From Mesaphorura yosii (Eukaryota; Arthropoda; Collembola; Poduromorpha; Tullbergiidae): a DNA stretch of 64,000 nucleotides. The first letter of the stretch is position 1, and every line of letters starts with the position of its first letter. The stretch spans positions 1 to 64,000 of the forward strand of contig WIXG01000055.1 in assembly GCA_009869945.1 (NCBI GenBank), read 5' to 3'. The notes under the pieces were generated by a model. The model worked only from the letters and a program-made list of their open reading frames with translations, ran no database searches and was not told the origin of the DNA. Positions 3,837-37,998 of the stretch are shown here, in pieces. A program made the position numbers and the translations under genes.

Positions 3837-7164
<3,328 letters not shown>

Positions 7165-13859: not shown

Positions 13860-14079
13860 TGCTTCCTGCTTCCTGCTTTACTCCACGGTTCCAACAAAAT
13901 GAATGCAATCACGTAGACGCGCAGGATAGGATTTTATTGACGTGAATCACAACTCACAATGTATAGAAACTTCTAGAATGTTAAACCAACCGAGCGAACC
14001 GACACTTAAAGTATGTCATTTAATTAATGTCAGTATTGTGTTTTATAAACAATAGAACAAGCGCTTGGCGGTCTGCTAC

Positions 14080-17000
14080 TCACTCGGAGTCCGAGTCGGA
14101 ATAAATGATGCGTGTTTTTCGTTTGCCGCTCTTGGTCGTTTCTTCCTCCTGCAATGTTCAATGAAGAATTCATTACAATACTTACGACAAGCAAATACAA
14201 TGCGCGTCGCCAAATCGCTATCGTCTTACCATGTCCACATCCTTCGTAGGAGAAGGACTTCCAATTCCAGGACGAACAGTACCGCCGTTGCCATTTGATA
14301 TCGGATCGGCCAGCTCCTCGCTTGCAACGGCAACAGCCGCCTCAGTCTGCATTTCATTGTCAATGTCATCCAACATCTGGACCACATCGTTTGGCATGAG
14401 ATTTCTGCTCTCCGTGCTCTGCCCCTCCGTCTCCTCCTCCTGAGGGACAATTACGCTTTCAACGCCCGATTCTGTTGGTCCCTGTGCTCGATCTTCGTCG
14501 TCCGAGCTGTCCACTGGTCTAATGAGACGGTGCCTGAGTACTTTGTGTTTGTTGAGACTAGTTTCAGTCTGCTTTTCCCAGTTGGAGTTGCCTGTGTTTG
14601 GTTCCGGAGAACCAGTGGAGCTTAAGGCTTGAACTCCCCGCTCCTTATTCTTTCGAAGTTCAGCAAAGAGTTCCTCGACCAGTGCGTCGTCATCTGAACT
14701 GTCTTCACGTCGTCCATTTCTGGATCTGGAGGCGGCGGACGCAGAGCTGCGACTACGACTGTCACCGTCGTCGGATTCTGAATCCGTGTGGCCCCTCCTT
14801 GACTTTTCTTCTCGGTCCGATGAGCCGTTCGCAGATGGAGCGTAAGGCTTGAGCTTCACAACGACTTTCTTCCTGTTTCCACCGGCTTTGTGGGAAAGTC
14901 TGCCCTGAAACTATTGCACAAGTACACGGATTAGACTAACAGCGGAGACAGCATTGTTCTGTGAAGAAAGAATGTCTTACCAGCAGCCCTCTTTCAGCCA
15001 AGAAGCTCGTAAGCACTTTCTTCACCTTCGGGCCATTGATAAGGCGCTCATTAATCCAAGAGATTTGTTTCATTTCCTTGTCTGCAAAGGAAAACGAAGT
15101 CATATATCATGGCACTAGCAAAGTGAGATCAACAATTCACTTTAGAGCAACAAAGAAGCGTGTCGGTGTCGATTCAATTGCAGGAGTCTGTGTTCCAATG
15201 GACAAATGTGGGTAAGACGAGAAAACAAAGGAGGGCAACACGAAAAGTTAATTTAAAATAAAGCCAAAACTAATGCGGATTGCGCATTAATTACCAGCCA
15301 GCGCGTTGTATTCTCTGGCCAACACTTCAATCTCGTTTTCCTCCTCAAGAGTCAGTATTTTGCGTGAGTTCTTCGCCTTCTTCGCCCTCGCGCCCGTCGT
15401 AGTCTCGTTGTTTTCACCATACTGAGCGTAACCCTCCTGAATCTCCTGCGCCTCGCGGGAACTCTTCCAGAAGAGGATTTCTATAAAAATCTTGGGGTTT
15501 GACTCCGCCAGCTTCACAAACTTCCTCCAAAAGTGGTAAATGAACTTTTCCGCGTCCTGAAAATATAAGAAACAAGAATAATCATTACTGTACATATGCT
15601 TGCTGTACTGTAAATTATAATGGCGAAATGACTCACACTCAATTGCGGTTGGAATTTGGCCACCTTCAGAATGCACTGAAACGTATGAAAAAGTGACGCC
15701 TGGCAGAGGAGTGCCGGGTAGCCCATCTCAAACGCGTAGCGGTGAAACATTTTCAGGATCGCGTGGAGAGTTAATGGGGACAACGCGTCAAAATACTTGA
15801 ACAAATTGGCGAGGTTAGACACGATTTTGACGACGGCGTACCTGCAGGAGCAAAGATTCATGGTAATCAAACTCACATCACTTGGTTACATGTTTTAATG
15901 TTACGACTCCACGCTTACTTTTCCAGAAATCCACGAAAATCAAACTCTGATTCACTCGAGTACGTTCTTGCTTCCGGCTCTGAAATGCACAAACAATGAA
16001 CGTGGTGGTTATCTGGAGAATCTGGACGCGATGACAAAATGGGCGCCATGCCTAAATTCACGACGCAATGCACGAAACACGACCACCGACGGTCTTTTAA
16101 ATTAGATTTCTTTAAGCCGCGTCGCGGGTGCCCGTGCCGTAATTACATTGCTGCTCTTTCAAAAGGCCGACAAATTGAATTTTGCAATACTTTTCAACTC
16201 AATTTTGGTCGTTCGTCGTGGACGGGCAAGATAAGTGGAAGGTTTAATACGTGAGACAAGAATGTAACTTTATGGCCATCACATCACCGTCGCCAATTAC
16301 AACGCATGTGGCTTTCACCAGTGAGAGCACTTTCTCTCTTTTCTCCCGCATTCAGCCCGGACGGGCAAGGCGGGTCTCGGACATATGGCGAGACGCGAGA
16401 GCGAGAGTTAATGGACCAGCATCCGCGCAGAATAATGGCAAAGTGCACGCGGGCCGAAGAAGAGGTCAAACGCTAACGCTTTACTCTGGAAATCTAATCA
16501 TATGAAAAATTATATCAATAAAAATGTCAGGAAGGGAGAAAAGATGTCTTGATTTCAGCTCGGAGTGAGCATTATTAAATTGTAAAGGAAAACGGTGGCA
16601 GAGGACCAGAATCCGGGCTGGCTGGCAAAATGTGAGCAAATGGGGATGAAGTACAAATTCGGAGGGGAGGCCAGCCGAATGCACTCTGGATTGATGAATA
16701 AATCGTGGAGAAATCTAACACCGCACGGGGAAAGCAATAAGTAAAAGCCAACTACCAAATACATGAGCGGGTAGACTCAGCAAGGGTCGAGTGAAAGTGA
16801 AAAATAATTCTGTCATGTCGCGCATCAGAAAGTTAACGCAACTGCAACACACGAAACGAAAACAAGATTCGAATTCGATTTCGCCAAGCTGCTTCATGTT
16901 AATTAGGAAGAAGGCAGAGGCCTTCTAACTGAAAACACTTGCATGGAAGTGCGAGCCTGAGTTTTAGGGTTTTCCTGCCAATTAATTCCGAGAGGCAGGG

Positions 17001-20000
17001 AAGATGAAGAGGCTCTTGAAAAATGCTTGCACAAGTAATTAATTTTCATTTCATAAACTGCATTTTCATAAATGCAGCGAATCCAACAACAAGTGCAAAG
17101 AATCCGGGAATGCTTTTGTTTCTGTGTGCAGTATGCCTTTGGCGCAGGACACGGAAGGAAATCCATTAAGGAAATGCCTTGTTTACTCGAGAGCACTTGT
17201 GCGGGCAAAACACTCAAGTCAGCGAGGATTTTCAAATGATGGCAGTTTTGCACTGAAAACGCCGCGGCGGCTGGCGAAAGGCTCAATTAAGTTTAAGTTT
17301 AGAATGATGCGATGCAAGAAGCCAGCGACGAGCAAACACGGGTGATGACAGGAAATGAGCAAAATCATCCTCACGAAGTGGTAGGCCAAAGTTTGTAGCA
17401 AAAGCAACGTTATTCACATTTTGGCTGAAGACGCCTGCCCGACAGCCTGTCCATCTAAAAATATGAATAAGCCAAAGTGAGTGAATGGAAAATTGAGTGA
17501 TGATGGAATCGGATTCAAATGCTCTTGGCATTATTGATGCGTTCGGGAGGGGAAGTCCCGAAAGAGAAAGTTGGTAGTCGGTCCTGGTATTCAAATTCCG
17601 TAGCATAGCCTCATGTCGTGTCGTGAACTGTGAACCAACCAAGCCAAGCCGGAGTACAAGAAACAAGTTTAAAAGTTGAACGAGAGGAAATTGCGTAAAG
17701 AACTTCGACTCGCATTCAACCGAATCGAATCCACCGACGTTTGAATGGAAGGTGATTAATCTAATAAATGGAAAACGAGATCGCGTTATGCAAACCTAAA
17801 AAGGAAAAAAGTGAGCATGAATCCTCATTTCGGGTAACGCACGAAAGAAATGAATAAAAATGAACCGAGTTTATCGCTGCTCGCTAAAGACTCCATTAAA
17901 AACCATTTTTCATTGATTTCATGAACGCAAAGGCAAAAGTTTCCTCTCAGAATTTCGTAACTTTGCCTTGCTAATCCGTACCGGCAGATTTCATTGCTAA
18001 TATCGGCTTCATCGCATCGCGCAAGATCTCGTTTGCATTTGCATGAAAAAGTGTGTCTCACCGTCGTCTTCGTCGTCGATCTCTTCATCATCCTCGTCGT
18101 CGCTGGGCTCCGCGGGTGGCTCGGCGCCTGAAAGTAAGTCGAAGAACTCGATTATGAATGCAGTCAAGTCAAAGTGAATGAGATCATAAAAGATTCACGA
18201 CATGCAAAGATTAATGAGAAAGATAAACGAGAAGCTTCAGAATCTTTCTCATCTCGGCATTCTTAATCAGAAGATCATAACAACTTTGCACAAGATGGAA
18301 GGCTCCGATCAATTTTCGGCCTCGGCATCTTTTGACTGGCTTCTCGTGGGCCAGTTTCCAGCTTCCGCGAAGTAACAATGAAGTATAGACATAAAATGAT
18401 GAATGGCATTTAATTACTTTTATTAGCACATCTTCGTGTGCTTATGCGTTCGAATTTCTCTGTCTCTGTGTGTTAGAATGTGACGGAATATTTTTTAAAG
18501 GCTCAACAAGACTGCTGCACAAATTCAGATGAAAATGTATTGAATGTCGAGCTGGCTGCTTCTCAACATTAGCGAACGGTGACATCGGCCTTGAAGCTTT
18601 TACACCACACCACGCTGACTTTATTCAATTCGCAATGACCGTGAAGCTTCGTACTCTATGTGTTTAGATGTCGGACAATACTGGCTCGCACAGGGGAGAA
18701 TATTACAAATTTTCATCAGACTGATTTTTTCAAATCCAATTGCAAGATTGACGCTGGCCGTGCAGCTTCGCACTCTACGTGTTTAGATGGCGGACATTGC
18801 TGTCTCGCCAGAGTGAAATGTTACAAGCTTTCATCGGGTCATTTTTTAAAATTTGACAGACAACGTCATTGAGCTTGAAGCTAGACAAATTGCCCAATCG
18901 AGTCAATCTCTACAGGTGTGCGGTAATCAATGGTGTTGCCTTTGAGAGTACAATGTTGGTTATTAATCGTAGCATGGGCGCTATGAACAGCATTACGTTT
19001 CAATGAAAATGCAAATGTTCGCCCATAGAATTAAATCGTCCAAAATTGAATTAGTCAGCGATGCTTCTGAAGATGTGCTTAGGTGGTTCATTACTTGTAA
19101 TGACGTATTAGACTCACAAACTCGCAGGGCGATAATAAAAAAAAGAGGGCCAATTCTGGTCGTGGTGCTGACGTACGGCAAAATATTGTGGGGATTTCTC
19201 ATTTCTTGACAGTTTGATTGCACTTTCTTAACAGCCGCGCTGGATTCTTTCCAAATTATTAGGAATTATTACATTAATACCAGTCAGCTCCTTGAAATCA
19301 CCAACTGCTTAATACCTCGTGCGCCTCGAGGCGGGATGCTCAAGTTGTCGGTCCCAAAATGAGCGCTCTCGCCCAAATCCACGTTAAATTGCAATTTGCA
19401 GTAAAACGCAAAGGCAACAAAGAAAGATCGTAACTTCCAATGAAATCATGAAAAGCGAAGGAAGAGCTTTAGAATATGTTGCTAAATTTAATATCGCGAG
19501 ACTTATCAGATGAACAATGCTGCACAGCAGGTTCAGCCTGTGGGCTATTAAAAACTTAAAATTTTGATGGTTCTTTCGTTTAAATCCTCATAAGAAAATT
19601 CCCTCTGCGTCGCGCACGCTGGAAACCAGAATTTATGGCTCGTAAATGGAAGGCAAGCGCGGTAGTAAAAAGCACGACCCAGAAGCAAGATGCAAGATTT
19701 GTTGTTCTGAAACGCGAGACTCATTTGTTCCCATTACGGGCCACGACAAATCATAATACGGAGAAATTTTATGAGTGAAATTTATGTCCTTTTGTATTCC
19801 GCTCCATTTTAGAGTAAGCAACAGCAACAAAACAAAAGTCTAAGCAGTTTAAGCCGGCACGAACCATAAATGTGGAGCATGCAGGATTTTCCAGTTTGCG
19901 AAACGCGAAACAGGATAGAAATGAGGTCAGGGAACTCGGACGATTGCACGAACTGGAATGCAAGAGTCCTACAAACAACTAATAAAACTACAAACGCAAT

Positions 20001-23000
20001 TCCTCTCGAGTCCAAGTTCATTACAGATAGAAGGCACCTCACGAAACTGTAAACAGGAAATGGAAAGAAGCGGCGAGTCAAGTCATGAATCGTTTCCAGT
20101 CAAGTCCAGTGTGATATGAGAAGGCCGTCCAGAGGACGCGACACGAGCAAGGTCAAGGCAACGACAGATTCGATTCCCGTTAAAAACCAAGCATTCGGCA
20201 TTGGGCTTTTCGCATTTTCGACTCAATCGCTATCGTTGACTCTGCAAAATGCGAAAGTAGCAAAAGTATGCAGCCTCCACTTGTTTTGAAGCCAGTCGAG
20301 TCAAGTCAGCAATGTCAATGTCACTGCTACTGCTGAGGCTGACTTGACTATGCGAATCCAGGACAAATTATATCACATAAAAATTGTAATAATACAAATT
20401 CCTGCTGCCAGGCTGCTGCGATGCTTCCCGACGCGGACGTCAGGAAGGACGCCAAGAAGAGAAGTTCTCGCTCGCGTCTGCGATCAGGTTTTGTTTGCTG
20501 TCGGATAAGAAAAGCGACTACGGCAACTTTTGCAGAATTTGAGTACATATGTATGAATTTTTTCAACGCGTCGTAACATTTCGCGTGCGATTGCTCCGCT
20601 GGGCTGCCTAATAAAGTCGGATATTCACCATTCACACTTCTTTCTGCAGATATTCCAACGCAAATGCGGAAGATACGCATCGGAAAGCGACTTTGGAGTC
20701 TGTCACAGTCGCATTTCTGGCTGGTTAAGTAAACAGAGGACGCATTATTCAAATGGCGACAACAATGCTCCACTCAAAGCACAATCGGATTCTCAAGAAA
20801 TGGAATGGAAGCGTCTTGGAATAATAAACCCGTATGCACTTTGAGAACTCGGGGTTCTTGATTTATTATTAAGCGTCAAAATGTATACAAATATTTCTCA
20901 CTCTTGAACTCACTCCAGAAGAGCGAAGGCGAAAGCAGAGCATCAATACCGACTGAAAACAGCTTCCAAATCCTTTCTCCTCGACAAAGCGCTCTCGCCT
21001 CGCATTGCCTCGACAAGACGTCCCGAAACGAAACACCGCTCCCACGCCGAAACGTCTGTTTCGAATCTGAATCCATCTGCTTGTTCCTCAGAGTGGAAGA
21101 TCTCGCATTTTCGGTCTTCTTCTGTTCTGTGCCTAAGTCAATTATGGAGCTATTGATTTTTCTTTGTTCTCTTCCGTCTCACACGCTCAAAGCAGGCCAG
21201 CCACTTCTCAAGCTTCTCGATGGGTGTGTATTATTCAATTCTCCGGAGAAAGCGAAGACCAGCAGGCCAGCCCGACTCAACGCGAGAGATAAGCGAGTGT
21301 TTCTCTTTTTATTCCGCTTGAACTCTCACGCCTCATTCACGCAAAGCCAAACCAAACAGCCAAACACGCGTACACTAATTCATTGTTGCCGTCGCCGGAC
21401 ACAACTCGAACGCCACGCCAAGACGGATGGACGGACGGACGCTGTGTTGTGGGAAACGCGATGCGAGATTCAATTGGACTCATAACAATAATGATGTTTG
21501 CTCAGCCGGCTGGCTGTTCAAAATCGCCGGCACATGGCACATTCGAGACGAGAGGGTTATGGACTGTAACTACTAACTGGGTTACACACTCGCCCACCGT
21601 GCCTCTTAACAAAGACTTTGAAGGAGTGGATGGAACTGCTTTCTTCTCTCTCACAAATCTCTATTATTAATACAGGCATCAAGGAGGAAACGCGTACGTG
21701 TGCTTGGCAGCAGGCGAAGGGAAGAAGAGGAGAAAGATTTCTCCTCTGAAGAGTTATAAATTATATACGCTTGCTTATGAACTTTTCCTGCTCCACTTCC
21801 ACTCCACGAGATGAGGAATATAAACATTAATCAGTAACTCGATATTGAAAGATAAATAAACCAAGCCAGTGCACCACACATGCAGGCAGCCAGCGAATCG
21901 AGTAGTCAAGTCGAGTTAAAGCAAACACAAAAATTCTTCATTTACGTTGCGGCCTAATGAGAAAGTCTCGCTCGAACGTGCACGTGCACGCGTGTGCATA
22001 CGGATTCCAGCACAGAATGCAGTAATAATTACGCATTGTTTGCTTGTTTGGACTCCAGGACATTGAATCAAATCTAAACGAACGCAGCAATTCACAAAGG
22101 GCATACGCGCCAACGTTAGACTTGATTGAATGAAAGCCGCTGCCGCAAAAACTGCTGTCAAGTCGAAGGAACAAAGTGACATTCGCCTTTTAAATTGAAA
22201 TTCTAATCCGACGAGTCTGTCGTGCCAAAACATGCCACCCGATCTTTTGTTATCACAACGGCCAGGCCAGGCCAAAACATCGCTAGGATCCGCGTGAGCG
22301 TCGACGGAAGTGGGCTTTAATAAAATTAAGGCTCCGACAGGGAAAGTGTCAATCCACGTCGAATGAAAAAGCAGACGAGTGAATGGAAGCAAAGTAAATC
22401 TAATAATCCTCGAAAATTTTAAAGTAATTTAAATTCGGCTTAATAATACGGGAGAATTAACGTCGACAGCGGGGCAGAGCATCCTGGGAAAACAGATTTG
22501 GCAGATAGGACAAAGTGAAAAAGGGTGGCCAACAAGGTAGAAAGAAAAAGTGGATGTGATACATTGCGCTCGTACTCGGCAGACAGGCACAGACTTAAGC
22601 TTCACAGGCATGGGCTGGCTCATAATCCAAATAATATACATTGCACTACATTTCATTGCCTTTTATTCTCCAGTTGGATCTCCACGCTCACAGCGGAACT
22701 CTGCCGATGAAGTGCACGCGGCAGAGGAAAGGAAGGAAAGACGACTCATGGCTCTACGGCACGGCTCGCTCAGTTTAGACTCTGAAAAGGAGACGCAGAG
22801 ATCAGTTCGACTTCAGTCCGAATGTCGGTGTCGATCAGTCACCACACACCAACTGCCACTTGTTTTATGACGCTAACGCTCGAATCATGTAATTTCGATA
22901 CTCACTGAAGAAGTTCTCGCAGAGTGTTTCGTCGTGTTTTCGAAATTGAGATTAAGTCATCACGGTTAAACAAGTGAAGTGCACAAGTCTCTTAGTCAAG

Positions 23001-26000
23001 CCAGAAGGCCAGCGCATTATGGAAATTGTTCAGAGACACACACTACGGCCACGCGGTTTCACCAGCATTACGCCAGCCAGCTCTGGTCCATTACGTAATT
23101 GAATTTATACGGACTGGCACTGCGTTCTGCGTCTGACTTGGAACAATACGAAATAGCTTCATTTCCTCCGCCCGCCCTGCAAACTTGTGCGTGCAGCGTT
23201 CATGGGCTCCCGCCACGCATGTGGTTTGTCCGAACGTTTGTACACGTGTGTGGCCTGTTGAATGCATAATGTAATTTAACTCTGTGGGATGAGTGAAAAA
23301 TAGTCAAGATGAATAGGCTTCTGGTGGTTGTTGGCCTCATCGGGCTGGCGTTGCCCACCTTTTCCAAAGGTGGACTCGGCGAATTTTTGCAGAAAGCACC
23401 ACAAGAAGACTGCCCGACCGAATGTTTTTGCGACAGAGTCGCCTTGTTTGCGACGTGCACCGGTGATGCCATGAAATCCTCTCTTCCCAGCCTGTCCTGG
23501 CTGAGTCCCGAGAGAATGCATCGGATAGAAGTTCACGACTTCCTGCTTGGCGATTTGATCCTCGACCAGCCGACTCATTACAAACTGTTTCACTTCCTGG
23601 AAGAGCTGCACCTGTCGCACAACCAAATTACGGTGATCCATTTCCTGCTGCTGCAGGAGCCAATCACGACGAATGCGCAGCCGAGCCTGCAGCTGCTTGA
23701 CCTGAGCTTTAACAACCTCACCTTCTTCGAGAGCGTGTCCGAGTACTCAGCGCTAAAAGTGCTCGACTTGTCACACAACAAAATTCATAGGCTTCAGCTC
23801 AACGGGCTGGAAAGGCTCGAAAGCCTAAATCTGAAAAGTAACGCCATCGAGGAATTGAGCGAACACATTTTTCAGGTACGCAAAACTTTCGTCTGCTTAG
23901 TCGTAGCCGTCCTTTGTCAATAAAGAAATCACGAAATGCAAATTAGGAGAAATGTTGGCTATTCATAACTCAGAATGCGTGGAAAGTTTATCTTTCCAGT
24001 TAAAAATTCAAAGCAGTTCACGTGTTCGGGCCACTTGTTTATGCAAGCACCGCCTAAACTTTGCAAATTATCATAAACTAATCGCAGTGCTTCTTTCTTG
24101 GAAGCAAGAAGCAAAGAGAAAGATAGAGTCGAGTCCAAGTATGCAAATAAATTCGCTTGAAAATTCTGCTGATAAACAATGCGTTGAGATGAGCCGTACA
24201 TTAAAAATCACGACAGGAGAAAAGCGAAAGCTGACGCTGACTGGCTCTTCTGATTAGTAGATGGGAACTTCTTCACTGCGACCCAAAGTTTCAACATGAA
24301 AAGTTCAAACTTTTCCGCGTTTTCTTCTGCGTCCTCGTCGAAAAAGAAAATTCATGTTTAATTCAGTGAGAAATGGAATTTTCAAATTAAAATCTCAATT
24401 CTCACTGGTTCTAAATTCTAAATATGAAATGGCCTAATTAATAAAGTACTTTATAGCCGAAGCATACAACGCAAATTCAGTTAAGTGTATGGATTCGGTC
24501 GCGATAATCATTTCAAAAAATGGCGTCAGCATAAATCCGAGCTCTGAAATATTTTACCTCAGCAGACAGGCAAGCGCTTTTGCTCAAATCCGAAATGATG
24601 ATCCCATTTCTTTCGGTTTAGTTGGTCGGCGAATTAGGCAAATGCAAAACTTATCTTGCAAAACTTTGCTTTTAAAAACTTGTAGCATAACTTTCTAATA
24701 TGATGATGATGACTACGCGCTCAAACCACGTAAGAAGAAAACATGGAATAGTAAAGTGAGCGGGTGCATCGAGAAAATTTGAAATTTGCTTGCCCTGCCC
24801 TGCCCGCCTGTACTGCGTTTACATGCAAGGATTATTAACTCGAGCTGCATTACAAGCAGACTCATTTTATGAGTCGTTCCGCCATATTTAGCCTGGGATG
24901 AATGAGAAAGCGAGGAGGAAGCAGCACGGCAGAAAGTTTCGCCTGTCAAAAGTCTGGCTGAGCATTTTTCCAACGTGCTCCGAATGCAAGCGAGACAGCT
25001 GCATGACTTATGACGTGCCATTACACAACTTTTCCAATATATTCTCGATCCTATCGCTTCCTGAACACGAACACAAGCGCATTCGCGTCTCTGCCGTTCC
25101 TTCGTTTCAAGGTTAAAAGTGCAACCAAGCACTTAACGCTAGTTATTAAGACGATTAGAAAACGCAAACTCTTGCCTGGCTGCTTTTTAATGCTGTCCTT
25201 TCTTAATACTCTGCAGTCATTGAACTCAATTCAGTACATCAATCTGGATGGAAACCGGCTGAAGCGGCTTCATCCGAACCTCTTCTCGAACCTGCCCTCG
25301 CTCGTACACTTGATTCTCTCGTCGAATCCCTTCCAGCTGGACCGGACGAGGCTGATACTGAGTGCGAGGACGCAGTTCATCGACATTTCCAGCGTGGGCC
25401 TGGACCACATCCCGCCTGCCATGTTCGGGTATGCAAATTAGAAAACTGCACCACAACTGCGACTCATGCATAAAGCATAATGAAAGCCCAACAAAACACA
25501 TAGTAAATGTGCTTGTTTCTTTCTGTTCTGTTTGCAGGACCGTGCGCGATCTGCGCCTAAACAACAACAAACTGAAGAGGATCCTCTCCAGTGACTTTGA
25601 GAGCTACCCAAACGTCGGGCTGTTGGTCCTCGATGAGAATCAAATTGAAATCATTGAAAATGATGCATTTGGTCGAATGGACTTTCTAACGAGTCTCTGG
25701 CTGAATGGAAACAGGTTTGAACAGTTTTTCTCTCCTCCCAATAAATACGTCTCAACGAAAGCACTTCCTGCCATCCACGCTCTTCTGCTCGGATGAATGA
25801 GAAAGTTCAATTGCTCCTTCTCACGCGCTCACGGAGGCATGCACCAAAAGCCTAGCCTTTACTTTTACTTTATTGCACTGAATTCGAGTTTGTCGTCCAT
25901 CATTTCGACTTCAGTGTTTATTCAACAGCACAGGCCAACTCAAAATAAAATGCCCCACCGAATTCGTGTTCATGCATCCATGGGTCAGCCGAGTGCGTTG

Positions 26001-29000
26001 GCATCTGACCGACTACTGACTGCTCTTTCCTTTCTCCGACACATACGCACAGCGCATTACACATCTTTTATATTCATATCTCAACCCGCTTTTATTTGCG
26101 CTGAAAAAATATTTTTCTTGGCCCAAGATGTCTTCATTCATTTCATTGCTACTTACTTTTTGCATGCTTTTTGTAGTAACGCCATGACCATCTCATTACT
26201 GAAAATCTTCGTCCTGGGCGAGGGTGAGTGTCAAACGCTGTGCTGCTGCTTTTAGTTTGCTAGTGGATGGGTTGGGATTACAATCGTGATAAAATTCGCC
26301 CCAAGTTTCTCATAAAATTGAGTTTTATGAGAAAGCAGTGACAACACTACTGCCCTTCCGCCCTGCGCTTTAGCCTGTACGACTGCGATTCGATTACGTT
26401 CTTTACTATCTTACTAAATAAATATAAAGATAATGCCGGAGGAAGTGCGCGATGCAGCTCCACTTTAATAGCCTCGGCAGCGCAACGAGACAATTTCCTG
26501 CGTAGTGAAACATACGACTCGACAGTCGACCCTGTCCAGCAGTCGCAGTTTGCAGTTTCCATCCTTTTATAATAATACAATGAATAGGACAAGTGTGGCC
26601 ATTACATTTCTTGTAACTGCATTTTAACAATATAAAATACGAGCACGACAATTGGATCACATTCCAATAAACGGAGACAGGCCTGGCGAATTTGTAACGA
26701 TACTCGGACAATAGCAATGAGCAATCAAATCTACGAGCATGGCCGTGTAATACGGCGCAATGAAGAGGAAGGGTCATCGGGGCCAAATAAACTACAATGC
26801 CTCTTTTACTTGAGACAGGACGAAGAAAGACTTTCTCTTCCCTGCAGTCTGCAGAAGAGGATTAGTTGGCTCCGTTCAATTAAGATGCTGTATACAAGCA
26901 GCAGCAATACAAATTTCTCGAACGCCCGAATCTTGTATGATGCTGGATTCTAATGCATCATTAATTGAAAAAGTTTTCGTGTCTTTCGCTTTCACAGCGA
27001 AAAGCAACAACAAGCAATAATGTCTTGTTAGGGCTTGGAACAAAAGAAAGACTCGTGGCTCGTAATGCAATGTAATCTAAGAACAGAAACACGGTGGCAT
27101 TGTAGTAATTTGTGAACGTGAATGGAATCCTCCGACTTGAGACCAAGACCAAGGCCCTTTGAATGCGGAATCCAATGATAATTATGCACTGCCAGTTGCT
27201 TTCTGCAGAAGAGGAGAGAGAGCACGGACCGATACAAGAGAAATAAAAACTTTCTCGTTTTCCGTTTCTTTCTCTGAGCAGAAACTTTACAAAAGGTGGC
27301 CGTGGCCGTAACCGCTCTCGCGTTCTTCCGCGTGCTTTCTTCTGCCTCAACGCATCCGTGCGGCGCGCGTGTTGCCTTATTTTTATGGTCTCAAACATGC
27401 ACACATGCAACAACCCAGCATTTACGCATTACATTACACTTTAAACTGCATGTTCATGAAATCGCATCGCATGGCGCAGGCCGAGGATCCCCTCGCAAGA
27501 AATGTTAAGTATAAACTAAAAGTAAAAAACTACATTAACATTATTATTACGGGCACCAGAGAAAGATCATCATCATCATGCCACGCCAGACGCCACTCCC
27601 GGCTGCTTTCCCTCTCCTCATCCGTTAAATGTAAAGTTTCCGTGGTCGTACATTCTCGCAACTTTTGCAGCAAGTCCAAGTCGAGTCGTGGCCTGAATGA
27701 GAACAGAACAAAGCCCAAACACGAAACACGAAAAATGGTATGGCACAAAATGTAGAAAGTTTTCCGCATTAAATATGCTACTTCCTGGCAATTGGCAGCA
27801 CAGAGCACAATAACAAGATACGAAAATTTAGCCTACGTTAAGAAGCAGTAGACAAAATTCGAGGGCCACCCAAAATTTATAAAGTTATCATCGGACTTTA
27901 TGGCCATTGCCATTGCACAGCAAATACAACAGGAAAAAAGGGCACACAACTCGAATACTCGAATTGATGATTATTGCAGGCTGGCAAGCTAAATATTCGA
28001 CTTTCTCTGCATTTCAGACTCGCGAGCATCCCACAGAACCTTCCTTCGTCGCTCACGTCGCTGCAGCTGGAAGAAAATCGCATCAGCGCTCTGAACGCGA
28101 GTTCGTTTGCTCCGCTGCACAAATTGGAGCATCTCAATTTGCATCTGAATCAAATTACAGTGCTCGAACCCGACGTGTTCGCCCCGCTGTACAACCTCGT
28201 CACGCTGAATCTGGGCACGAATCTCATCGACACGATTGCCCTCGACAGTTTTCGGAATCTGTCCAAATTGACCGTGCTGGACCTCAGCGGAAACCCCTTG
28301 CGGGTGCTCGTGCACGGAGCCTTCGACCACACGCCACTCCTACAGGCGCTTCACCTCGCACGCATCAAAGAGCAGGAAATCGCGTTTGAGGCAGGCGTGT
28401 TCGACGCTCTCGGCAGCCTGCAGCTGCTCGACCTGAGCAACTCGAAGAACCTCAGCCGCCAAATCTTGGCCGCGCAGTGCCTGAGTCGTGGGTGGCTCAA
28501 GTCGCTGCGAGAACTGAACATTGAACGCTGTGATTTGCGAATCGAACTCTCGTCGCTCTGCGCTGAGCTGCTGGCGCTGGATAGCCTCGTGACGGTGAGG
28601 GCGAGGGGCAATTCGTTCAACAGCACGAGTACAAGTGTAATGTCAGGGAAAGTTGTTACTGCTGCGGACAATTCTGTTAATGAGAATGATAACCTCGATT
28701 CCTACTCTCCCATTCAAAAACTTTGTCCAGCGACGAGGAGAGAGCAAGACGGTCCGACCAACTCGAGTGCGAGTGAGGGAGAAGGTGACGAAATGAGTTT
28801 AGTCGGTTCGGACGAAGAAAGAAAAGTGTCCTTAACCTTAACTACAATCGCAAACACAAAGAGTTCCAGCTCGTCCTCAATAAATGTAACCGCTTCGACC
28901 AACTCCAGTGCAGACCCACGCACAAGATTCTACACGACAAACAAGGCGCCAACGTCACGTTCCCCAAATACGAAGACGATGACGACGACGCTGGTAAGCG

Positions 29001-32000
29001 AATAACACACGAACCCGAATTTCTTTCCATTCCTCTCAAGTTTCTTTCTGCTTTCCTTCTTCACTTTTACTTTATCCCATCAACTTTATTGTACTGAAAG
29101 AGAAACATGACAAGAATACGCGTATTAACTGACAACACGATGGCGAAAGAAAGTTTCGTGCTGCTTTCAACATCAGCAGCTCGACGCTATAAAAATGTTG
29201 CGGCTATAAAACAAATGAAGAGTGGTAATTTCACCGCAATCGCCGATTGCCAACGTATTTGTGGATGGATAATGCGACAAGTGACAATTTATCACGAAGG
29301 AGCACAATCTTGTCAACATGTCGTATTAAAAGTCTCCCTCGTAATCTAATTAGACACCTGTTCCTTCTCAAGTTAATGCTAATGGCTCAACACACAGCAC
29401 AGCGCAAAGCGTGCGGCGTGTGATTGACGACAGATTCACAAAATGTCTTCTTCCTGCCGACTTCACTTGACTTTTATTACGAGTGTTTCGACACTTTTCT
29501 CAACACGGAGAAAATCGTACGTGCTTAAAGGCAAAGAAAAGGAGAGAAGAGAAAAATGTCAAATGCGAGAAGCGAAAGTCAAAGTGCTTTTTCTTGTGAA
29601 ATCACGACTCGACTTGAAGTTTACCTGCTTGGTAGTCGCTCCGCTCAATCTGTCTAATGGTGGCTTTATGGGCCGGCATGCGGAGAAGACCAAAGTGGCA
29701 GTTGGCAGTGTGAGAAAGTCGCAGCATGCTTGAATTCAGATAACGAATCGGCGAAATACATTTACAAGATTATAATTTCATGAAGTTGGCAGGCAAAAAG
29801 ACGTGCTGACAATTTTTGATGTCGTTAGACACTTTTAAGCCAGTCGTTTCATGTTTCATCGTTTTTCTTACCGCGTCCCGGCCCAATTAACGAACGCCGT
29901 CTCTCGCATTCATCGTCAAATCAAAGGAGGCTATAAAAACACAAGTTGCAAAGCTGCAAAGTTGCAAAATTCAGTTCGCACAATTCGCATTGGGGTTCGT
30001 AACCTCTTCAACCGGGAGCAGCGATAAAGTGACCGAGTGCAAAAATTTGGCAGAGTCTCAAGTCTCGGCTCGTTGCCTTGAGCCTGAAAAGTTTACTTTA
30101 ATTCTATTAAAGAATTTTATATTCGCGTTTCTCTTCTTCTTATGTCAATAAAAACAACTTTCTCCGAGTCGGGAATTCTCACTGTGATTCGCAAGCGTGA
30201 GCGTGAGGACGAAAGTGCAAAATCCAGATTTGAGATTCCTTTTCGCATGAGTGACTTTTGCTGCCTCGCCCTGCCTATCAACTTGACACCATCGCGGACA
30301 CTTTTGCCATATCGCCTCAGTGCAGAATGCATGGCGAGGCCAGTGAAGTACAATTTGAACTGAATCCACAAGACAAGAAAGTCTTCTCGGCCTTTCCTGC
30401 ACTTGCAGTGCACGGGAGTCGAGTCGGAATAATGCGCGATATACGGTCACATAAAGAAAGATAAAACTTATTTTCAGCAGGTTTCTCATTCATTTTCTCT
30501 CCAGCTCGCGTCTCGTCGAGTTTCTAATGCAATTTCCTTCCCGTCTGTTGTGCAGGCGGCCGAGGGGCCAACAGCGACCTCGACCTCTTCCTACTTTGAT
30601 CCGACGTGGTCCAAGACAAATGAGAACGAGGCTGCGCTGGGACCGAGATCGATTGATGGATTTCCGGCCGATCTGTCGGGTCGAACTACACTCAGCAGCA
30701 ATTCTTTTGGAAACACGGCGGGACGAACTTTTGTAGCAGCGCAGGAACATAATGATGATTTCGCCAAGGGGAGTTTCCACGTGAGTCTCGCTTTCTCTCC
30801 TTTCTTCCAACTTTTCCCTTCTTCTTTCTCTCCTGAGCCTCTACTCTGCCTTTCTTGATGAATTCGCATATCTTATTTTTCTGTTCGTGCATGGGCAAAT
30901 GGGCAAGGAAGAATATAAAAAGCACGGCGACGGCGGAGATGAAAATGTTGCCCGTTCTTCCGTCCTACTTTGGGCTTAAGTTCAAGATCCTATGTACTGC
31001 TTGCGTTGCTTTACTGCTGTTGCAAGATGAGAATTATTTGAGCCGCCGTCGAGATGACTTTCTTGTTCAAATACGCACAGCATAAAATTACATCTTTTCT
31101 TATCTCGGATCCAGTTACCATATTCATCCTCATATTCAGGCTCACACCGCCTTCACAATTCCTGTGTCTTGCTGCTGCTTTTACTAGAGAAAAGTCTCTG
31201 AATCATCTCGCAGTTCTCTGCTGCATAATTTCCACGTCTATTCCGCCCATCAACTTCATTACTGCCTGACTGCTAATTTCAGAGAAGAGACCAGACACAT
31301 ATGCGCCACACGCCACAGTCGTCGCATGAATTCTAATCCGCACTCGCGTGCAGGCATGCATTTTGCATTTTAATATCGCGCATCACGTTGCCTCACAGAA
31401 ATTCTTTAATTATTTCGAAATCCTATACAACAAAACCAAGCCCAGTCTAATCTCACTCAATCTTCGGGAATAAACAAATTGAAAATCAATCGCAGCGTAT
31501 CCCGAAGCGTGTACGTGTAAGCCAATGCTTGCATGTTATTGATTCAAACTTTTATTGGAGAGACACCGGGAAAGGAGAGAGAAAGAGGGATTAGATTCCC
31601 AAAGAGAAAGACAGTTACACTGACTACACAAAAATATGGTCTGCCTCATTTTTCTCGTTAAGCCATGAATTTATCTCGTGCGTGTAGTACACAAGATACA
31701 CAGGGAGATTTCTTGCCACCGCCTCCACGTGAGTGCATTGATCAAAGCAAAAGCAAAGTGATCAATCATGAAAAATGCAAGCCCGGTGCAGTTTCGAGTC
31801 TGGATTGGATTTCTTTTGTTTCCTCAGCCGAGATACTCATCTCTGCCGCCAACGCGCTGCAATCGCAATGATTGCACTGACTGCGAATGCACTCAATTTG
31901 TAGAAAGACTGGACACGATTCACAAGACAGACGGCACGAACCGTTTGAATGAACAAAGACACTCAGATTTCTCTCGTCTTTCTTTGTCCTGTCGTGTTTC

Positions 32001-35000
32001 TCCGACTGAGAAAGGATTGAGAAAATCGCATAAAGCATAAAAGACGCACAGAAGAGCGGACAGACTGGCTGGGGCAGACCGACAATAGAATTCAATTCGG
32101 CTTTGGCTCTGCCGAGCAAGAAAATGGTTCTTAATTTAGATTAAATTCCTCTTTCAGAAGGCAATAAAATCTGGCCGTATTATTGCATTATATTTCGCGG
32201 CGGTATGAAAACCAATTCTCGTGAATTGCATCCAGCTTAGCTTTTACAGCAGCGTGTATTTCATTCAATCACGGCTCCAAATTCCTAATTCATGAAAGAT
32301 TGCTTTATTTATAAGCCCTCGACTGCACTGATTTGATTTCTTGTTCCTGTCTCGCCCTTCTCGCAGGGAGTTCTGCCACAGCAAATGTACCTTGCTCAAG
32401 TCTCGGCAACGGAGGAGAAGACGCCGAGCCGAGGTATCATCCTGAAGACGATTCTCATCTCCGCCGGAACCTGCCTCATGTCTGTGTTCCTACTCCTCGG
32501 CTTCGGACTCGTCCTCTTCAGGTGGCACGGAGGCCGATTTGACCGGGGCGCCAGAACAAGAGAGGTAATTTGTAATTTCGTGATTACGAACGTAATAAAA
32601 TGCCAGCAGGACATTTGAAACAAGAACACGCACCACGCACGCACCGATAAATGATTACTCCATGAATTATTGACGACATCGCTCCCTCGGAGTTTCTGTG
32701 CTTTTACTCTACAAAATGAGTCCCTGCTGACGAAGTGTCTTAATTTTCGGTTGCAGACGACCAGCACGACGGACTCCTACAAGCGATTGGAGGACCGACA
32801 AGAGCTCGAGCTTGGAATCAGCAACCGAATGTACTACGACGGCGGACAGGTGTACCACATCAGCTAAAGTCTTAAGTCTTGCAAATACAGCCGTAAAGTG
32901 CGCGACAATAAATGCTTGGTAATCAAACCAGGAACCGGCTTGGCAATAGATTGAGTGAAAGGCAAAGCAATGATTTAAATCTTAAATGTCATGGTCAAGC
33001 TTTAGCGTCTAGCGTATGCATAATTAACTAGGAATTCGAGTTTGTCTAAATTGTCCACTGCAAATTTACGGTTTAAGAACGGTCATTGACTTGACCGAGC
33101 CCTGCCAATGCATACTTGACCCTCGCTGAATGTTACGTCATGTGGATTGCAGACTTGGGAATATATTACGCTAACTGTTAGTAATAAAATATATCAGATT
33201 CTAAGGAGCGAGGGTATCCAGACAACTCGCCAGGCCATGTCTCTATTCTGTACGAAATGCCGAATGCCGTGAGTCGTGAATAAAGGAAAGGAGAAGTTGT
33301 TCCAATAAAAAGAAGCATAAAATTCATCATACCCGGAAGGAGCGTCGCTTGAAGAAAAATCGATTTGAGAGATGAAATTTCAGTCTCCATTGAGAGTTGA
33401 TAATCATCCGGCCAAACTTCTCTGCGAAAATAATTCATCGGGGCAGAGCACGCATTAAATTACGCCAAGGAATAGTTTAAAAGTTCGTTCTAAATATTAT
33501 AATTATGGGGCTAGTGACTGCCTCTGAATTTCTTCTGCGTCGAGTTTCAGAATACTTTTCCTCATTATCATTCAACGGCTCACGCCAACAACTTAATGAA
33601 TTACGAAACTGACACTCTGGGAAATTCGATGCTCAACTCCCCAAGCACATAATTAAACTAATTAGAATTTTCTTCCAGTCTCCTTCCACACACACACTAA
33701 GTCTAAGCCTGTATGAGTACTTACTTTGCTGCTCGGAGCAGTGACACCGCCTTGGCGAACTCCTCCAGCGAGACATGAGTCGCAATTCGATTCAGAGTAG
33801 AAACCCTGAAATGGCAAACATTCATGGGATGTTAATTTATGGCAAACATCAAGCTCAGAGCTTCTGATTTCATACACTCACGTGCGGAAAGCGTAATTGG
33901 ATTAATTAAGCTTTAATTATGCTTCCTCCACAACTGGGGCATGCAAACAGTGAAGCAGGACAAAGATGAAGTGGCTCAAATGAGATTTCTTTTGTTCTGC
34001 GTTCATCTCGCTCGATGGAACTCAATTGGGAAAAGAAGTTATTTATTTCGCTCTAATCCCATAATTTTCGCGTTTCGCCATTGTCTAAGCTAACTTAAGC
34101 AAAGTAAGCGTGCAAAGAACTGACAGTGACAGAACACAGAAAGCATGCAAGTAGCAGCAAATGGTAAATGAGTACGTACTTCTGCTCGTCGATGGGTGTG
34201 TCACTCGCTGCATCAAACGGGAAGGCCTGCTCCAGTTCGGGAGCACTGGAGAGAAACTCCGTCAGCTTTTCCTCAACACGCACCCAGCTTTCTTCGGTGT
34301 TTTTCACTCGCTTGCTTTTCCTGCTGTCGCTCTTCTTGTTCTTCGAAGAACGCCCTGCAACGCAAACGCATTAATGTGAGCAAGCATTTGTAATCCACGG
34401 GTAATTTATTAACTGCGCATTATATTTGGATGTGAGAGCGCTCGTGTTCGTATTCTCAGTCATAACAAAGTGCACGGCAATCAGACGAGCACGAATGGAG
34501 AAGATTTACGAGATATTTATTTCATTGTATTTCCCTCCACTCCTTCTCGCAGAAGGTGAAAGAAGATTTCGCAAAGGAATTCAGTATTTATGAGAATACT
34601 TAAATTGATATTTTTCCTGTGCTTCTTTCTTACTCAGGTTGAAGAATTACTTACTTCTCTTAATTCGCTTTCTGCCTGCCACGAGTATCGGCCGCTCCTT
34701 GGAAAAATTCTCCAGCATTTTGAGAAATAAATGGTTGGTGTCAACCAAATCGCACAGGTAGTTTCTACCTCAGAGAGAAAGACTTCATTTGTAATTGTTT
34801 GAAGAACCGTGACTAAACACATGATAATAAATACCGGGATAACTTTTCGCTTTCGTAGGACGCGAGCAGCCCGACGCAGAGTTCTCTGTACTCTGGTAAG
34901 TAGAAGACGGTGCTCTCAATTATCTGCGCTTGTTCCCTGTTTGCTGGAGTTTGCTCCATTGCATGCAAAGATGACAACAGCTCCTGCGAGTCAGTAAACA

Positions 35001-37998
35001 TGTTAACTCACTTTGTGCAAGTGCCGTATTTCATGACTTGACGAGCTAAAACAGTGACTCACTTGATAGGCACGAAACGCGGTGTGGGCTCGTTTGCCCC
35101 ACAAAATCGCATTATCCTTATCAGTGCGCATCAGCTCGTGGTAACGTTCCACCAAGCCTTGGACATAGTGAAATGTGGGTTTGTCCAGAGTTTCACTGGA
35201 AACGTCAATGCGTCAACGCCAGAGCAAAGTAACGGCAAGATAATGGTTCGGTAACGAAGAGACTATGATCTTTACCTCACTAATTCCAGACGAAACTTGT
35301 AGAATCGATTAAATTCCATGAAGAACCTCATTGCGAGGAGGTAGTACGTCTCCTCGTTGTCTTGACCTCGACTCCGGTCGAGGCGAACCTTCAAATGAAT
35401 TAAAAATAGATGATCTAAACATGGAATACACGACGATGACGCAGAGAGAAAACATGGAGAAAGCAGCACAACGCGGCTCAAGGAGAAAGTGGAAAAATAT
35501 CATGGCCTGGGCGAAACCAATTTGGAGCTCATGGGATCCTGAGTCCACAAGCACACAATGCTGGGTGGGAGATTATTTTCCTTCTACTTACTTTGACAGT
35601 CTTCATGAGATTATTGTACGCATGAAGCAGAAACTCGACGCAGAATTCCTTGAGGAAGAGGCGAACAGTCAGCGTGGATCTTCTCGCATTATGCGGCTCA
35701 ACGATCTGACGACGATTCGCCGGCGTCTTTCGAGTTTTCTAAAGTCAATATTATGATTTAGTTTTACTTTCTTCTCACAGAGAAGGCAAGACTCGGCGTC
35801 CAGCGTCCAGCATGTCGCATTTCAACAGGAAAGTAAAAGTAAAAGTTTGGAGTGGCTTGACTTTTAGCTCCAACTAATCATTCAACTCGAAACGATAGAT
35901 CGATGCTTCTTTAACAAAATACCGAATAACGATAACAAGCCAAAATAGTAAGTAGATATTTACCTTCATATTGTCGAGGGACAGATCAGCAACGGAGCGC
36001 ACTGGTTTATGACAAATCTGCTCACGTCCACTCGGCGCCTGCAAACCTCGAATGACAAACGTCCCACCGAAACTCCTGTGTCCACAACAAAGAGCGAAAT
36101 GTAATTCAAAATTCTCAAAAGCAAACAGAAATTGCAACATGTTGAAAAATTCATTGAAGGGGAGAGACAAACAGGACACTTTATGCATGTCAAGCAGTTT
36201 GCCGCAAATGAAGTGCGGAAATAGCGAAATGGCAACCGCAAAGTCACAGTTTTGTTGAATGAAAGTCTTCCGTAGACGACGTCAACTCGTACTCATTTAC
36301 CTTCCTGCCATTCGTTTCCGACTTTGCATGACTTTCTCGGCGTGAAGCGTTTGCGTGAGCACCTGCACATCCTGGCGCTTCTCCTCCTCACTGCGCACGA
36401 CCTGGGCTTTCGCGAGCTGCTCTCCAGAATGCTCGCGTAAGATTGATGTAATGATCTATAATGAAGCGTGTCATTTAGTCTCCCTTTTTACGTCAATTCA
36501 AATCATTTCCTTAATGCCTCGTGTGCGTCTGCGTACCTGCAGCGCGTACATACAAAACTCCCTCGTAGAGTCGGATGCTGCGACGAAAAGAAGCAAGTCC
36601 ATAACGCCTGATGTATGGAGAGCCCAAAGAACCTTTTGAAGTGACAGAAAGGAAATTCGGTTCAGAAGGCAAGCATCAGGGTTGGTTGGAAAAAATCATG
36701 ATTTTTTCGAAAAAATCAAATAAATCCGATTTTTCCCGAATTTCGTAGAAATGGGGTTCCATGTCAATATTTACTTGTTAAATTGTACCAGGTTTAATTC
36801 TGCACTTAAAGCACGCATTGAACTCAAATCAGGGTCTGGGACACACGATAGGGTGCAAAAAAGTTCGTGAAAAAACGTGCTGTTTCCAAATTAGAAAGTT
36901 TTCGTGGATCGGGAAAAAGCCAAGAGAAGGGGAAAAAACATAAATTATGATCATGCCTATTAAATTTTAGCTAGATTTTAAATTTTGCGTCTTGCATCCG
37001 CGGTTTTTTCGATTTGATATATATCATGATTTTTTCTTAGGATATATATCAACGATTTATATCAATCGATATATATTTGTCAACCCTGGCAAGCATTAAT
37101 GGCAGCTCGGAGGTCGCAAATCGTGACTTTGCAAATTTGAGTGATGCTCATTGCAAAAAGAGAAGTGGAGGAGAATATTGTAACCTGGTCATGAACACTG
37201 GCGTCATCATCGTTTCTCATTTCTTCCTTCGGATCAGCGGGCACTTGAAGAATGTTCTGTATCAGTGCCAAGATTCTCTCGACAGTCATCTTCTGATTTT
37301 CAAGCAGAACGTCCATATCCTGCCCAAATTAAAGGTGAAATATTTAAGGTTAGGGTAAATATTCCCTCGCGTGCACGAATTCTCAACCGCAATTCGCAAT
37401 TTACCGCAATTAATTTCTTCAGCTTGTGAAAAATCGCAGTCCAGAATTTTTCCTGAATAAAAGCCTCCTTGTACGCTTGTAAATGGCGTATGATTGTGGT
37501 GTAGTGATTGCGATCTACTTTACTTTTCGGAATTCCTTGCTCGTATAAATCCAGCGGAGGAGTTGTCAAATTCACCATGAGTCTGCGAATCAGCAACATA
37601 AAGAATTCTTGGTTAGTTGATACTCACATTCACATTGAAAACTGTTCAACGTTTACCTGAGAATCACTTCAGTCAGTTCGTCTCCGCATTTGTCCGACAC
37701 AAAAATTGGGATTAAATCTTTTTGCAAGATCTGAGCTTCTCCCAGTAGTCGCCGTACATCATGCTGCGACGTTTCTGATCTTCGCAAGTGCAAGATCAGG
37801 TCCTTTACACTGTCTGCATTCATAAAAACATCAGATGAGCCCCAACCCGCCTACACTAACTCATGAGATGACCAGTAATCAAGTTAATTCAAGTGATTAC
37901 TCACCGAAACACTGTGGATCAGGGCAGTACCGATCTTCCAGAGTGCAACCCAGCGTGTTGCACGCAGCCAAAATATCTGCAGTCAGGATTTCGTCCAT
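14080..37998 (-). CDS. timeout: Timeout (TIMELESS/Tof1-Swi1 family) fork-protection protein
   Basis: About 22 exons on the minus strand: 37998-37905, 37813-37657, 37582-37405, 37319-37185, 36632-36537, 36455-36301, 36075-35964, 35738-35592, 35388-35276, 35195-35063, 34983-34835, 34764-34655, 34354-34180, 33805-33725, 33247-33231, 18127-18062, 15979-15919, 15841-15637, 15556-15295, 15081-14981, 14910-14230, 14148-14080. They total 1098 aa (human TIMELESS 1208). With Tipin it stabilises replication forks and the S-phase checkpoint; insects also show clock roles. Matches run the whole length: RLMVNLTTPPL, HLQAYKEAF, VPADPKEE then NDDDASVHDQ, VLWALHTSG, FGGTFVIRGLQ, EETYYLLAMRFFMEFNR, YLPEYRELCVGLL, TNHLFLKMLE, FPFDAASDTPIDEQ, SLLRAAKIETWP, EFDFRGFLEKYA, FIEILFWKSSREA, and an acidic tail ending SDSDSE. 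Similarity to mammalian TIM indicates timeout, not circadian timeless. The 17-nt exon 15 and its GC donor are tentative. Exon 21 has two acceptors 6 nt apart. Confidence 0.93.
15980..18061 (-). other. Timeout intron (exons 16-17)
   Basis: A 2.1-kb intron, donor GACG|gtgaga and acceptor atttcag. I see no repeat with terminal structures, no RNA gene and no ORF with protein-like features. Confidence 0.5.
18128..23308 (-). other. 3' half of the large timeout intron, downstream of nested 2mit
   Basis: Non-coding on both strands as far as I can judge. It holds a diverged tandem repeat near 18636-18870 and several copies of short AAGTC/GAGTC words (for example near 20085, 20285 and 21905). The stretch just upstream of 23309 should contain the 2mit promoter. 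I did not find a clear TATA box. Confidence 0.4.
18636..18870. repeat. Diverged tandem duplication, period about 119 bp
   Basis: Two adjacent copies align from TGACCGTGAAGCTTCG (18636) and TGGCCGTGCAGCTTCG (18755). Both continue with a shared ACTCTAYGTGTTTAGATG core, then GCGGACATTGCTG-like sequence, then a TTTCATC block. A weaker third match to the start lies near 18590. There is no conserved reading frame. Confidence 0.6.
23309..32867 (+). CDS. 2mit: 2mit-like leucine-rich repeat transmembrane protein, nested in a timeout intron
   Basis: Seven exons (23309-23875, 25217-25428, 25538-25714, 28018-28993, 30556-30780, 32367-32564, 32757-32867), 821 aa, all phases consistent. It has a signal peptide (NRLLVVVGLIGLALPTFS), an LRRNT-type Cys cluster (CPTECFCDRV), many LRRs of LxxLxLxxNxI form (for example LEELHLSHNQI, LKVLDLSHNKI, LTSLQLEENRI, LTVLDLSGNPL), a Ser/Thr/Asn-rich stalk rich in N-glycosylation sites, one membrane helix (ILISAGTCLMSVFLLLGFGLVLF), and a short cytoplasmic tail ending VYHIS. 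It lies antisense inside a timeout intron. In Drosophila the LRR transmembrane gene 2mit, linked to memory and circadian behaviour, sits in an intron of timeout (timeless2). The orthology call rests on that position plus domain layout, not on alignment. Confidence 0.85.
25715..28017 (+). other. 2mit intron 3 (2.3 kb)
   Basis: Intron within the nested gene, donor AACAG|gtttga and acceptor atttcag. It contains simple CAT/ATC-type runs near 27560 and no supported gene. Confidence 0.5.
28994..30555 (+). other. 2mit intron 4 (1.6 kb)
   Basis: Donor CTG|gtaagc and acceptor tgtgcag. It contains a TATA-plus-initiator arrangement at 29932-29976, listed separately. No coding exon is evident. Confidence 0.5.
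29932..29976 (+). promoter_or_regulatory. Possible core promoter (TATA + TCAGT initiator) inside 2mit intron 4
   Basis: CTATAAAAACAC near 29931 is followed about 38 nt later by ATTCAGTTCG, which contains the arthropod initiator TCAGT. The spacing is slightly long for a strict TATA-Inr pair. No obvious coding exon follows directly. It could drive a short 2mit isoform lacking most LRRs or a non-coding RNA, or be chance. Confidence 0.25.
30781..32366 (+). other. 2mit intron 5 (1.6 kb)
   Basis: Donor CAC|gtgagt and acceptor tctcgcag. It contains no recognisable coding, RNA or repeat feature. Confidence 0.5.
32907..32912 (+). terminator. Poly(A) signal AATAAA of 2mit
   Basis: AATAAA begins 40 nt after the 2mit stop codon, consistent with a very short 3' UTR inside the host intron. 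Confidence 0.6.
36677..37088. mobile_element. hAT-type MITE (412 bp) in a timeout intron
   Basis: The element begins CAGGGTTGG and ends CAACCCTG, giving perfect 8-bp terminal inverted repeats of the CAGGG type seen in hAT elements. It is flanked by a perfect 8-bp target-site duplication, GCAAGCAT, at 36669-36676 and 37089-37096; 8 bp is the hAT length. The interior is AT-rich with runs such as AAAAAATCATGATTTTTTC and ATATATATC and has no transposase ORF, so it is non-autonomous. It lies between timeout exons 4 and 5 and does not touch either splice site. Confidence 0.85.

Follow-up and report, generated by a model that had tools for sequence, protein, structure and literature searches.

The locus analyzed here raises the question whether an LRR-transmembrane gene that lies antisense in an intron of timeout is the gene 2mit, and for how long the two genes have been held together. 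The window, which is the whole 64-kb stretch of DNA that was analyzed, had a GC content of 45.1% and belongs to an assembly of 93.0 Mb in 1127 contigs.

Antisense nesting of 2mit within timeout has been published for Drosophila and Apis; in four Lepidoptera 2mit is not nested in timeout (PMC3786989, available in part). In the literature accessible to us, no data on the pair were found beyond this source. The idea of a long-held nesting is not new, since the Drosophila and Apis cases are already in print. What is new is the lineage: the locus is probably a new member of a known pair, for which a much greater age would follow.

The host gene and the host intron

The host gene was represented by a spliced model of 21 coding exons on the minus strand (14218..37998) that encodes 1101 amino acids. 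Human TIMELESS aligned with the joined protein as a single stretch over query residues 4-803, which ran unbroken across the host intron and reached 551 bits (E 4.2e-164, protein alignment), compared to only 72 bits with a Drosophila Timeless chain. Based on this difference the host was assigned to timeout and not to the clock gene Timeless. The Pfam TIMELESS domain was present (E 1.2e-50), and all TIMELESS matches in the genome fell at this locus, which is the only TIMELESS-domain locus found. TIMELESS_C was found neither in the host protein up to E 1 nor in the genome, where controls gave no match either. The host had been named timeout in the original prediction, in agreement with these results.

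The host intron (18128..33332, minus strand) is coding intron 15 of 20. It measures 15,205 bp, whereas the remaining 19 introns range in size from 70 to 2082 bp, with a median of 147 bp over all 20. The intron has phase 1, splits codon 642 and is positioned near residue 657 of the human TIMELESS chain in the alignment. It is adjoined by exon 15 (33333..33421, minus strand) on the upstream side and by exon 16 (18062..18127, minus strand), encoding an acidic stretch, on the downstream side. Both exons have a GT donor and an AG acceptor and join in frame, in phase 1, across the intron. The nesting had initially been assigned to the interval 18062..33247, which starts at the low end of exon 16; the bounds of the host intron itself are those given above.

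The nested gene and its product

The nested gene is located on the plus strand, wholly between timeout exons 15 and 16 on the minus strand, i.e. in antisense orientation. Its 2mit-like coding span (23309..32867) was resolved into a model of seven exons, with GT-AG at all six introns, which splice to exactly 821 amino acids and a stop codon and encode a type I LRR transmembrane protein. Exon 1 (23309..23875) carries a start that resembles a signal peptide as judged by eye, four N-cap cysteines and the first LRRs. Further LRRs are encoded by exon 2 (25217..25428), exon 3 (25538..25714) and exon 4 (28018..28993), the last of which also contains four C-terminal cysteines and the beginning of a Ser/Thr-rich stretch that continues as a stalk in exon 5 (30556..30780). 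The transmembrane segment is located in exon 6 (32367..32564), and exon 7 (32757..32867) contains the stop codon together with the greater part of the cytoplasmic tail; all exons are on the plus strand.

A single intron of timeout, for which no second locus was found in the genome, holds a complete LRR-transmembrane gene in antisense; this intron is very long, and the exons on either side of it join in frame. Such a gene of seven exons on the plus strand between minus-strand timeout exons had been predicted, and the spliced models confirmed it. The arrangement is more than chance, because the two models combine 26 canonical introns (GT-AG at 26 of 26, host and nested gene taken together) with open frames and family matches along their length.

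Judging by position, the promoter and the 5' UTR of the nested gene presumably lie in the 5.2 kb of the host intron that precede the nested start codon (18128..23308, plus strand). Bacterial promoter predictions for 18000-23400 carry no meaning in this organism. Tandem repeats were absent at 14000-38500, and at the gathering cut-off no Rfam family matched anywhere in the window.

Within the protein, LRR_8 was matched with an E value of 3.9e-50, and one strong hydrophobic segment was found at about residues 747-770. The ectodomain contains 15 LRRs by pattern and about 18 when three added by eye are included. Four cysteines occur over 83 residues, at positions 473, 490, 500 and 555, and two or three of these fall among the last repeats. 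Serine and threonine account for 57 of the 190 residues from 556 to 745, and the cytoplasmic tail is about 50 amino acids long.

Comparison with published 2mit genes

As at the present locus, the pair of Drosophila, tim2 (timeout) and 2mit, has a gene for a transmembrane receptor with LRRs that lies in antisense within an intron of timeout. The layout of Drosophila 2mit, with a signal peptide, LRRs, a disordered Thr-rich stretch, a single transmembrane segment and a cytoplasmic C-terminus, matches that of the nested protein. However, 2mit of D. melanogaster has 2 exons and 1141 amino acids, compared to seven exons and 821 amino acids here, and its tail comprises 187 amino acids compared to about 50. 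The host intron in print is intron 11 of 17 in Drosophila and intron 14 in Apis, compared to coding intron 15 of 20 here, but ordinals alone prove nothing on homology (PMC3786989, available in part).

According to the same partly available source, Drosophila 2mit has 16 LRRs, and Apis and the Lepidoptera have two more, i.e. 18, as seems to be the case here as well. The C-cap region is given there as about 70 amino acids with four cysteines. The pair of Apis mellifera is nested in antisense as in our case but differs in its host intron, in the length of the protein (999 amino acids) and in belonging to a holometabolous insect. In the four Lepidoptera the protein is of a length similar to the one found here (710-825 amino acids, with 802 in Bombyx and 825 in Heliconius), but the gene lies outside timeout. 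The nested gene is thus probably 2mit, an identification for which the rarity of the arrangement, its orientation and the layout of the protein give good support.

Age and maintenance of the nesting

Probably the locus represents the timeout-2mit host-nested pair, here in a hexapod other than an insect and most likely in a springtail. The nested gene would be the orthologue of 2mit and encode a neuronal surface receptor of the LRR type, transcribed in antisense from a promoter of its own, and it would have remained in timeout from a time before the split of springtails and insects. Very long retention, as proposed in the original prediction, is supported when the springtail-like genome is taken together with the published nesting in Drosophila and Apis.

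The chances appear about even that the nesting goes back at least to the hexapod ancestor and was held by a putative constraint, with the regulatory landscape of 2mit interleaved with an essential replisome gene. Control sequences of 2mit spread through the host intron would be the likely reason. The gene timeout is essential in flies. Since almost any breakpoint freeing 2mit would cut timeout, we propose that separation would be costly, yet possible as in Lepidoptera.

To explain the persistence we prefer this cost of separation over shared regulation. That the pair was instead kept for regulation proper, by shared enhancers or by coupling through antisense transcription, is an unlikely reading, albeit the strongest of the alternatives. 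An intronic regulatory site was proposed as a constraint by the Drosophila authors, in whose fly data the two genes are functionally uncorrelated (PMC3786989, available in part). The host intron is far longer than the neighboring introns. At such a length the Snail site proposed, a motif of 6 bp, gives no information, with five copies here on both strands and 17 in the 64-kb window. The Lrba-Mab21l2 pair of Metazoa likewise joins a host and a nested gene that are unrelated in function and have stayed together for very long; those are other genes, and enhancer conservation has been reported for them (PMC3786989, available in part).

Probable membership of the nested gene in the 2mit family

As LRR proteins look alike, and since searches with solved structures and families gave general LRR matches only, the nested gene might be another extracellular LRR receptor which entered the long timeout intron independently and resembles the fly gene by convergence. 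We consider this improbable. The size and layout of the protein fit 2mit, and LRR_8 genes were found at about 46 loci, a lower bound with 150 of 420 candidates scored. With an assumed total of 12,000-20,000 genes, a randomly nested gene would be of the LRR_8 class only a few times per thousand, even before the same host and strand are considered. A recent retrocopy is opposed by the seven exons and by the absence of a close paralogue among the 55 of 91 candidates scored, where seven of eight matches were the gene's own exons.

The tail motifs speak in part for convergence. All 2mit orthologues are described with 14-3-3, PKA, NDR and PCSK convertase motifs, at least one FHA motif and at least one endocytic or ER di-Arg motif (PMC3786989, available in part). 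In the nested protein PKA, PCSK and endocytic patterns were present, and 14-3-3, NDR-convertase and FHA patterns were absent from the tail. All of these patterns carry little information: of the seven published ones tested other than EVH1, six turned up in 44-74% of shuffled tails and 14-3-3 in 18.5%. The missing motifs lower the case for 2mit membership but do not decide it.

Lineage of the genome

If the pair is orthologous, its age depends on the lineage. An arthropod Hox cluster with Antp-, Ubx- and abd-A-type homeodomains, an exact iab-4 and miR-965, a mandibulate marker (PMC4987109, available in part), were present in the genome. With up to 3 mismatches allowed, the loci examined did not contain miR-10, and neither COX1 nor 18S was found in the assembly. 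A tardigrade affinity, suggested by the size and GC content given above, was ruled out, as (GATGGGTTTT)2 was absent from the genome and the homeodomains and iab-4 named above were present; the GATGGGTTTT repeat is the scaffold-end repeat of H. dujardini (PMC5531438, available in part).

The locus could also be a true orthologous pair in a common winged insect, with odorant receptors that the search overlooked, in which case the nesting would not be shown to be older than already published. No insect odorant receptor (7tm_6) was found, with 10 of 10 first-look candidates below threshold, in a search that had no positive control. Four PBP_GOBP (odorant-binding-protein-like) matches were obtained, of which three were read as ORFs and the fourth (C7) has internal stops, and such genes occur in insects. 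However, two tandem DAOC-synthase-like genes with host-like GC3 were found, the longer one with an E value of 1.3e-99, and in the parts of the literature accessible to us such genes are reported among hexapods from springtails only. These copies are intronless and their contig may be contamination. On balance the winged insect is improbable. A crustacean affinity was considered after the odorant-receptor miss, and the OBP-like genes and the DAOC synthases point away from it.

DIOX_N matched 12 times in the genome, and the DNA was read for four of these (one on C759, one on C382 and two on C420). The copy on C759 was set aside as lineage evidence because it looks bacterial, being intronless with best matches seemingly of bacterial kind, and so was the copy on C382, which gave weak general dioxygenase matches only.

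Gene content is best read as that of a springtail, and with a springtail lineage the nesting would predate the insects. That the nesting is an artefact joining two loci is most improbable, even in an assembly of 1127 contigs with at least one (C759) that looks bacterial, since the window contains no N and hence no assembly gap separates host and nested gene, the phases of exons 15 and 16 agree, the splice sites are canonical and human TIMELESS aligns continuously across the host intron.

Significance

Nested gene relations often turn over, and among Drosophila species 20-34% of them are conserved; the split of Hymenoptera and Diptera is given as roughly 300 million years (PMC3786989, available in part). 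If our reading is true, the timeout-2mit pair would date beyond that split, and few host-nested pairs of protein-coding genes traced in arthropods would be as old. Retained in springtails, flies and bees but no longer in Lepidoptera, it would represent a natural experiment on the persistence of nesting, for which enhancers in the intron, the damage to the host on separation and antisense transcription are candidate causes.

The timeout gene and its surroundings

The host gene timeout (tim2) on the minus strand (14218–37998) contained 21 coding exons and encoded 1101 residues. Its protein aligned with human TIMELESS over residues 4–803 with 551 bits, compared to 262 bits with a chain presumably from its C. 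elegans homologue and 72 bits with one that is presumably Drosophila Timeless. Since the score to human TIMELESS so far exceeded that to Drosophila Timeless, the host represents timeout and not the clock gene tim1. All four TIMELESS-family matches in the genome were located inside this gene, which likewise bears out the host named in the original prediction. No second TIMELESS-family locus was found in the whole genome; if real, this absence would point to a lineage without tim1. A TIMELESS_C domain was matched neither in the timeout protein nor in the genome search, the latter run without a working control.

The host intron (18128–33332) is coding intron 15 of 20, in phase 1, with a size of 15,205 bp, while the remaining 19 introns ranged from 70 to 2082 bp. 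Directly ahead of an acidic stretch, it splits codon 642; in the alignment to the human chain this codon falls near residue 657. A false join as the origin of the arrangement is unlikely, because the flanking exons are in phase, the alignment crosses the intron unbroken and the window contains no N.

The neighbours of timeout, in three intervals at 5837–7164 (plus), 9042–10559 (minus) and 12000–13877 (minus), include an AAA/peptidase M41 gene, a gene for an RRM protein and frames resembling by eye the prolyl 4-hydroxylase alpha subunit, of which the two pieces tried had no Pfam match. Additionally, the window carried a secreted-looking, Pro/Gly/His-rich open frame of 997 codons without Pfam match (53326–56316, minus) and two lipase-family genes (PF00151) in opposite orientation (58900–59451, minus; 61297–62331, plus).

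The nested gene

Spliced models of both genes confirmed the predicted seven-exon LRR transmembrane gene on the plus strand (23309–32867) between timeout exons on the minus strand. Every intron was GT-AG and the product comprised exactly 821 residues. AATAAA was found 40 and 316 bases past the stop codon (32907, 33183) and again at 33279 and 33304, all ahead of timeout exon 15.

The protein has an N terminus that looks by eye like a signal peptide, N-cap cysteines at 35, 39, 41 and 50, and an LRR ectodomain (LRR_8, 3.9e-50) of about 18 repeats, 15 by the strict pattern and three by eye; a 16th strict match lay inside the membrane segment. Four further cysteines at 473–555, a stretch of 190 residues of which 57 are Ser or Thr, a single strong hydrophobic segment at about 747–770 and a tail of ~50 residues were also present.

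With 150 of 420 candidates scored, at least 146 LRR_8 matches were found in the genome, representing at least 46–47 loci. If the genome is assumed to have 12,000–20,000 genes, a gene nested at random would belong to the LRR_8 class in a few cases per thousand, before host and strand are required to agree. Searched against the genome (E<=1e-10), the nested protein gave at least eight matches among the 55 of 91 candidates scored: seven were its own exons, and one outside the gene matched with 36% over 129 residues.

Other features of the assembly

The assembly comprises 93.0 Mb in 1127 contigs. One of them (C22) carried homeodomains of the abd-A, Ubx, Antp, ftz, Scr and Dfd type in this order (named by eye), with an exact iab-4 past abd-A, which marks the source as an arthropod. 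The Ubx-type frame (C22:195001–205000) stops soon after the peptide following the homeodomain and lacks an alanine run of the kind present in insects. Furthermore, miR-965, called mandibulate-specific (PMC4987109), was found; its sequence differs at one position and folds into a good hairpin.

Four PBP_GOBP matches were above the cut-off. The three read as ORFs matched again singly, and the two of them tried against solved structures gave weak matches. In PMC6275457, five insects have 5–51 OBPs each, and none is listed for Daphnia, a centipede, a tick or five mites. No odorant receptor was found in the genome among ten of ten candidates scored, in a search without positive control; these receptors are described from all insects examined and as absent in Collembola and Diplura (PMC6080948).

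Contig C420 carried two adjoining intronless genes (14800–16800) similar to deacetoxycephalosporin C synthase, a beta-lactam pathway enzyme; the longer one matched the solved synthase with 1.3e-99. A third family match (DIOX_N profile) was located 8 kb away at 6727–6936. Genes of this kind are reported from a nematode and from several springtails, with none in the other hexapods analysed (PMC10531068). GC3 was 0.66 in the longer gene, similar to the 0.658 of the nested gene, and the spacers had 38.5% and 31.6% GC. Together with the features above, this makes a springtail very probably the source. As the copies read are intronless, the contig may be a contamination. On contig C759 (14869–15240) a bacterial-looking, intronless 2-oxoglutarate oxygenase was present (9ovh, 1.2e-139), a probable contaminant or transfer.

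Identity and retention of the nested gene

According to its published description, 2mit codes for an LRR membrane receptor and runs antisense within tim2. Twelve Drosophila species have it in intron 11, and in nine more it lies on the tim2 contig in opposite orientation. In Apis it occupies intron 14 on the opposite strand, and in four Lepidoptera it is un-nested. Its authors inferred that the nesting predates the Hymenoptera-Diptera split ~300 million years ago (PMC3786989). We found no other literature on 2mit together with timeout. The original prediction, a 2mit nested antisense in timeout over a very long time, is partly supported; its general point is already in print, since the nesting was described there for flies and Apis.

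Layout and size of the nested protein (821 residues) fit the published family, with 802 in Bombyx, 825 in Heliconius, 999 in Apis and 1141 in D. melanogaster. The tail motifs fit in part only: 14-3-3, NDR and FHA (at least one) motifs were reported in all orthologues (PMC3786989). Here, by low-information patterns, PKA, PCSK and endocytic patterns, common in shuffled tails, were present, and 14-3-3, NDR and FHA patterns, all but 14-3-3 common in shuffled tails, were absent. Compared with 2mit by its published description, and given how seldom a randomly nested gene would be of the LRR_8 class, the nested gene is very probably an orthologue.

In the fly, short-term memory depends on 2mit, which encodes an LRR receptor of the nervous system, while timeout is an essential gene for chromosome integrity; the authors saw no functional correlation between the two (PMC3786989). 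By analogy, the product found here may be a neuronal surface receptor too. An antisense promoter of its own would lie in the 5.2 kb from timeout exon 16 to its start codon. The gene may have been retained because its regulatory DNA sits in the timeout intron and because most breakpoints freeing it would harm timeout. A 6-bp Snail site was offered as a constraint on the pair (PMC3786989); five copies on both strands of the host intron are uninformative at such length. The locus probably joins the known timeout–2mit arrangement, and is of interest for how old the pair probably is.
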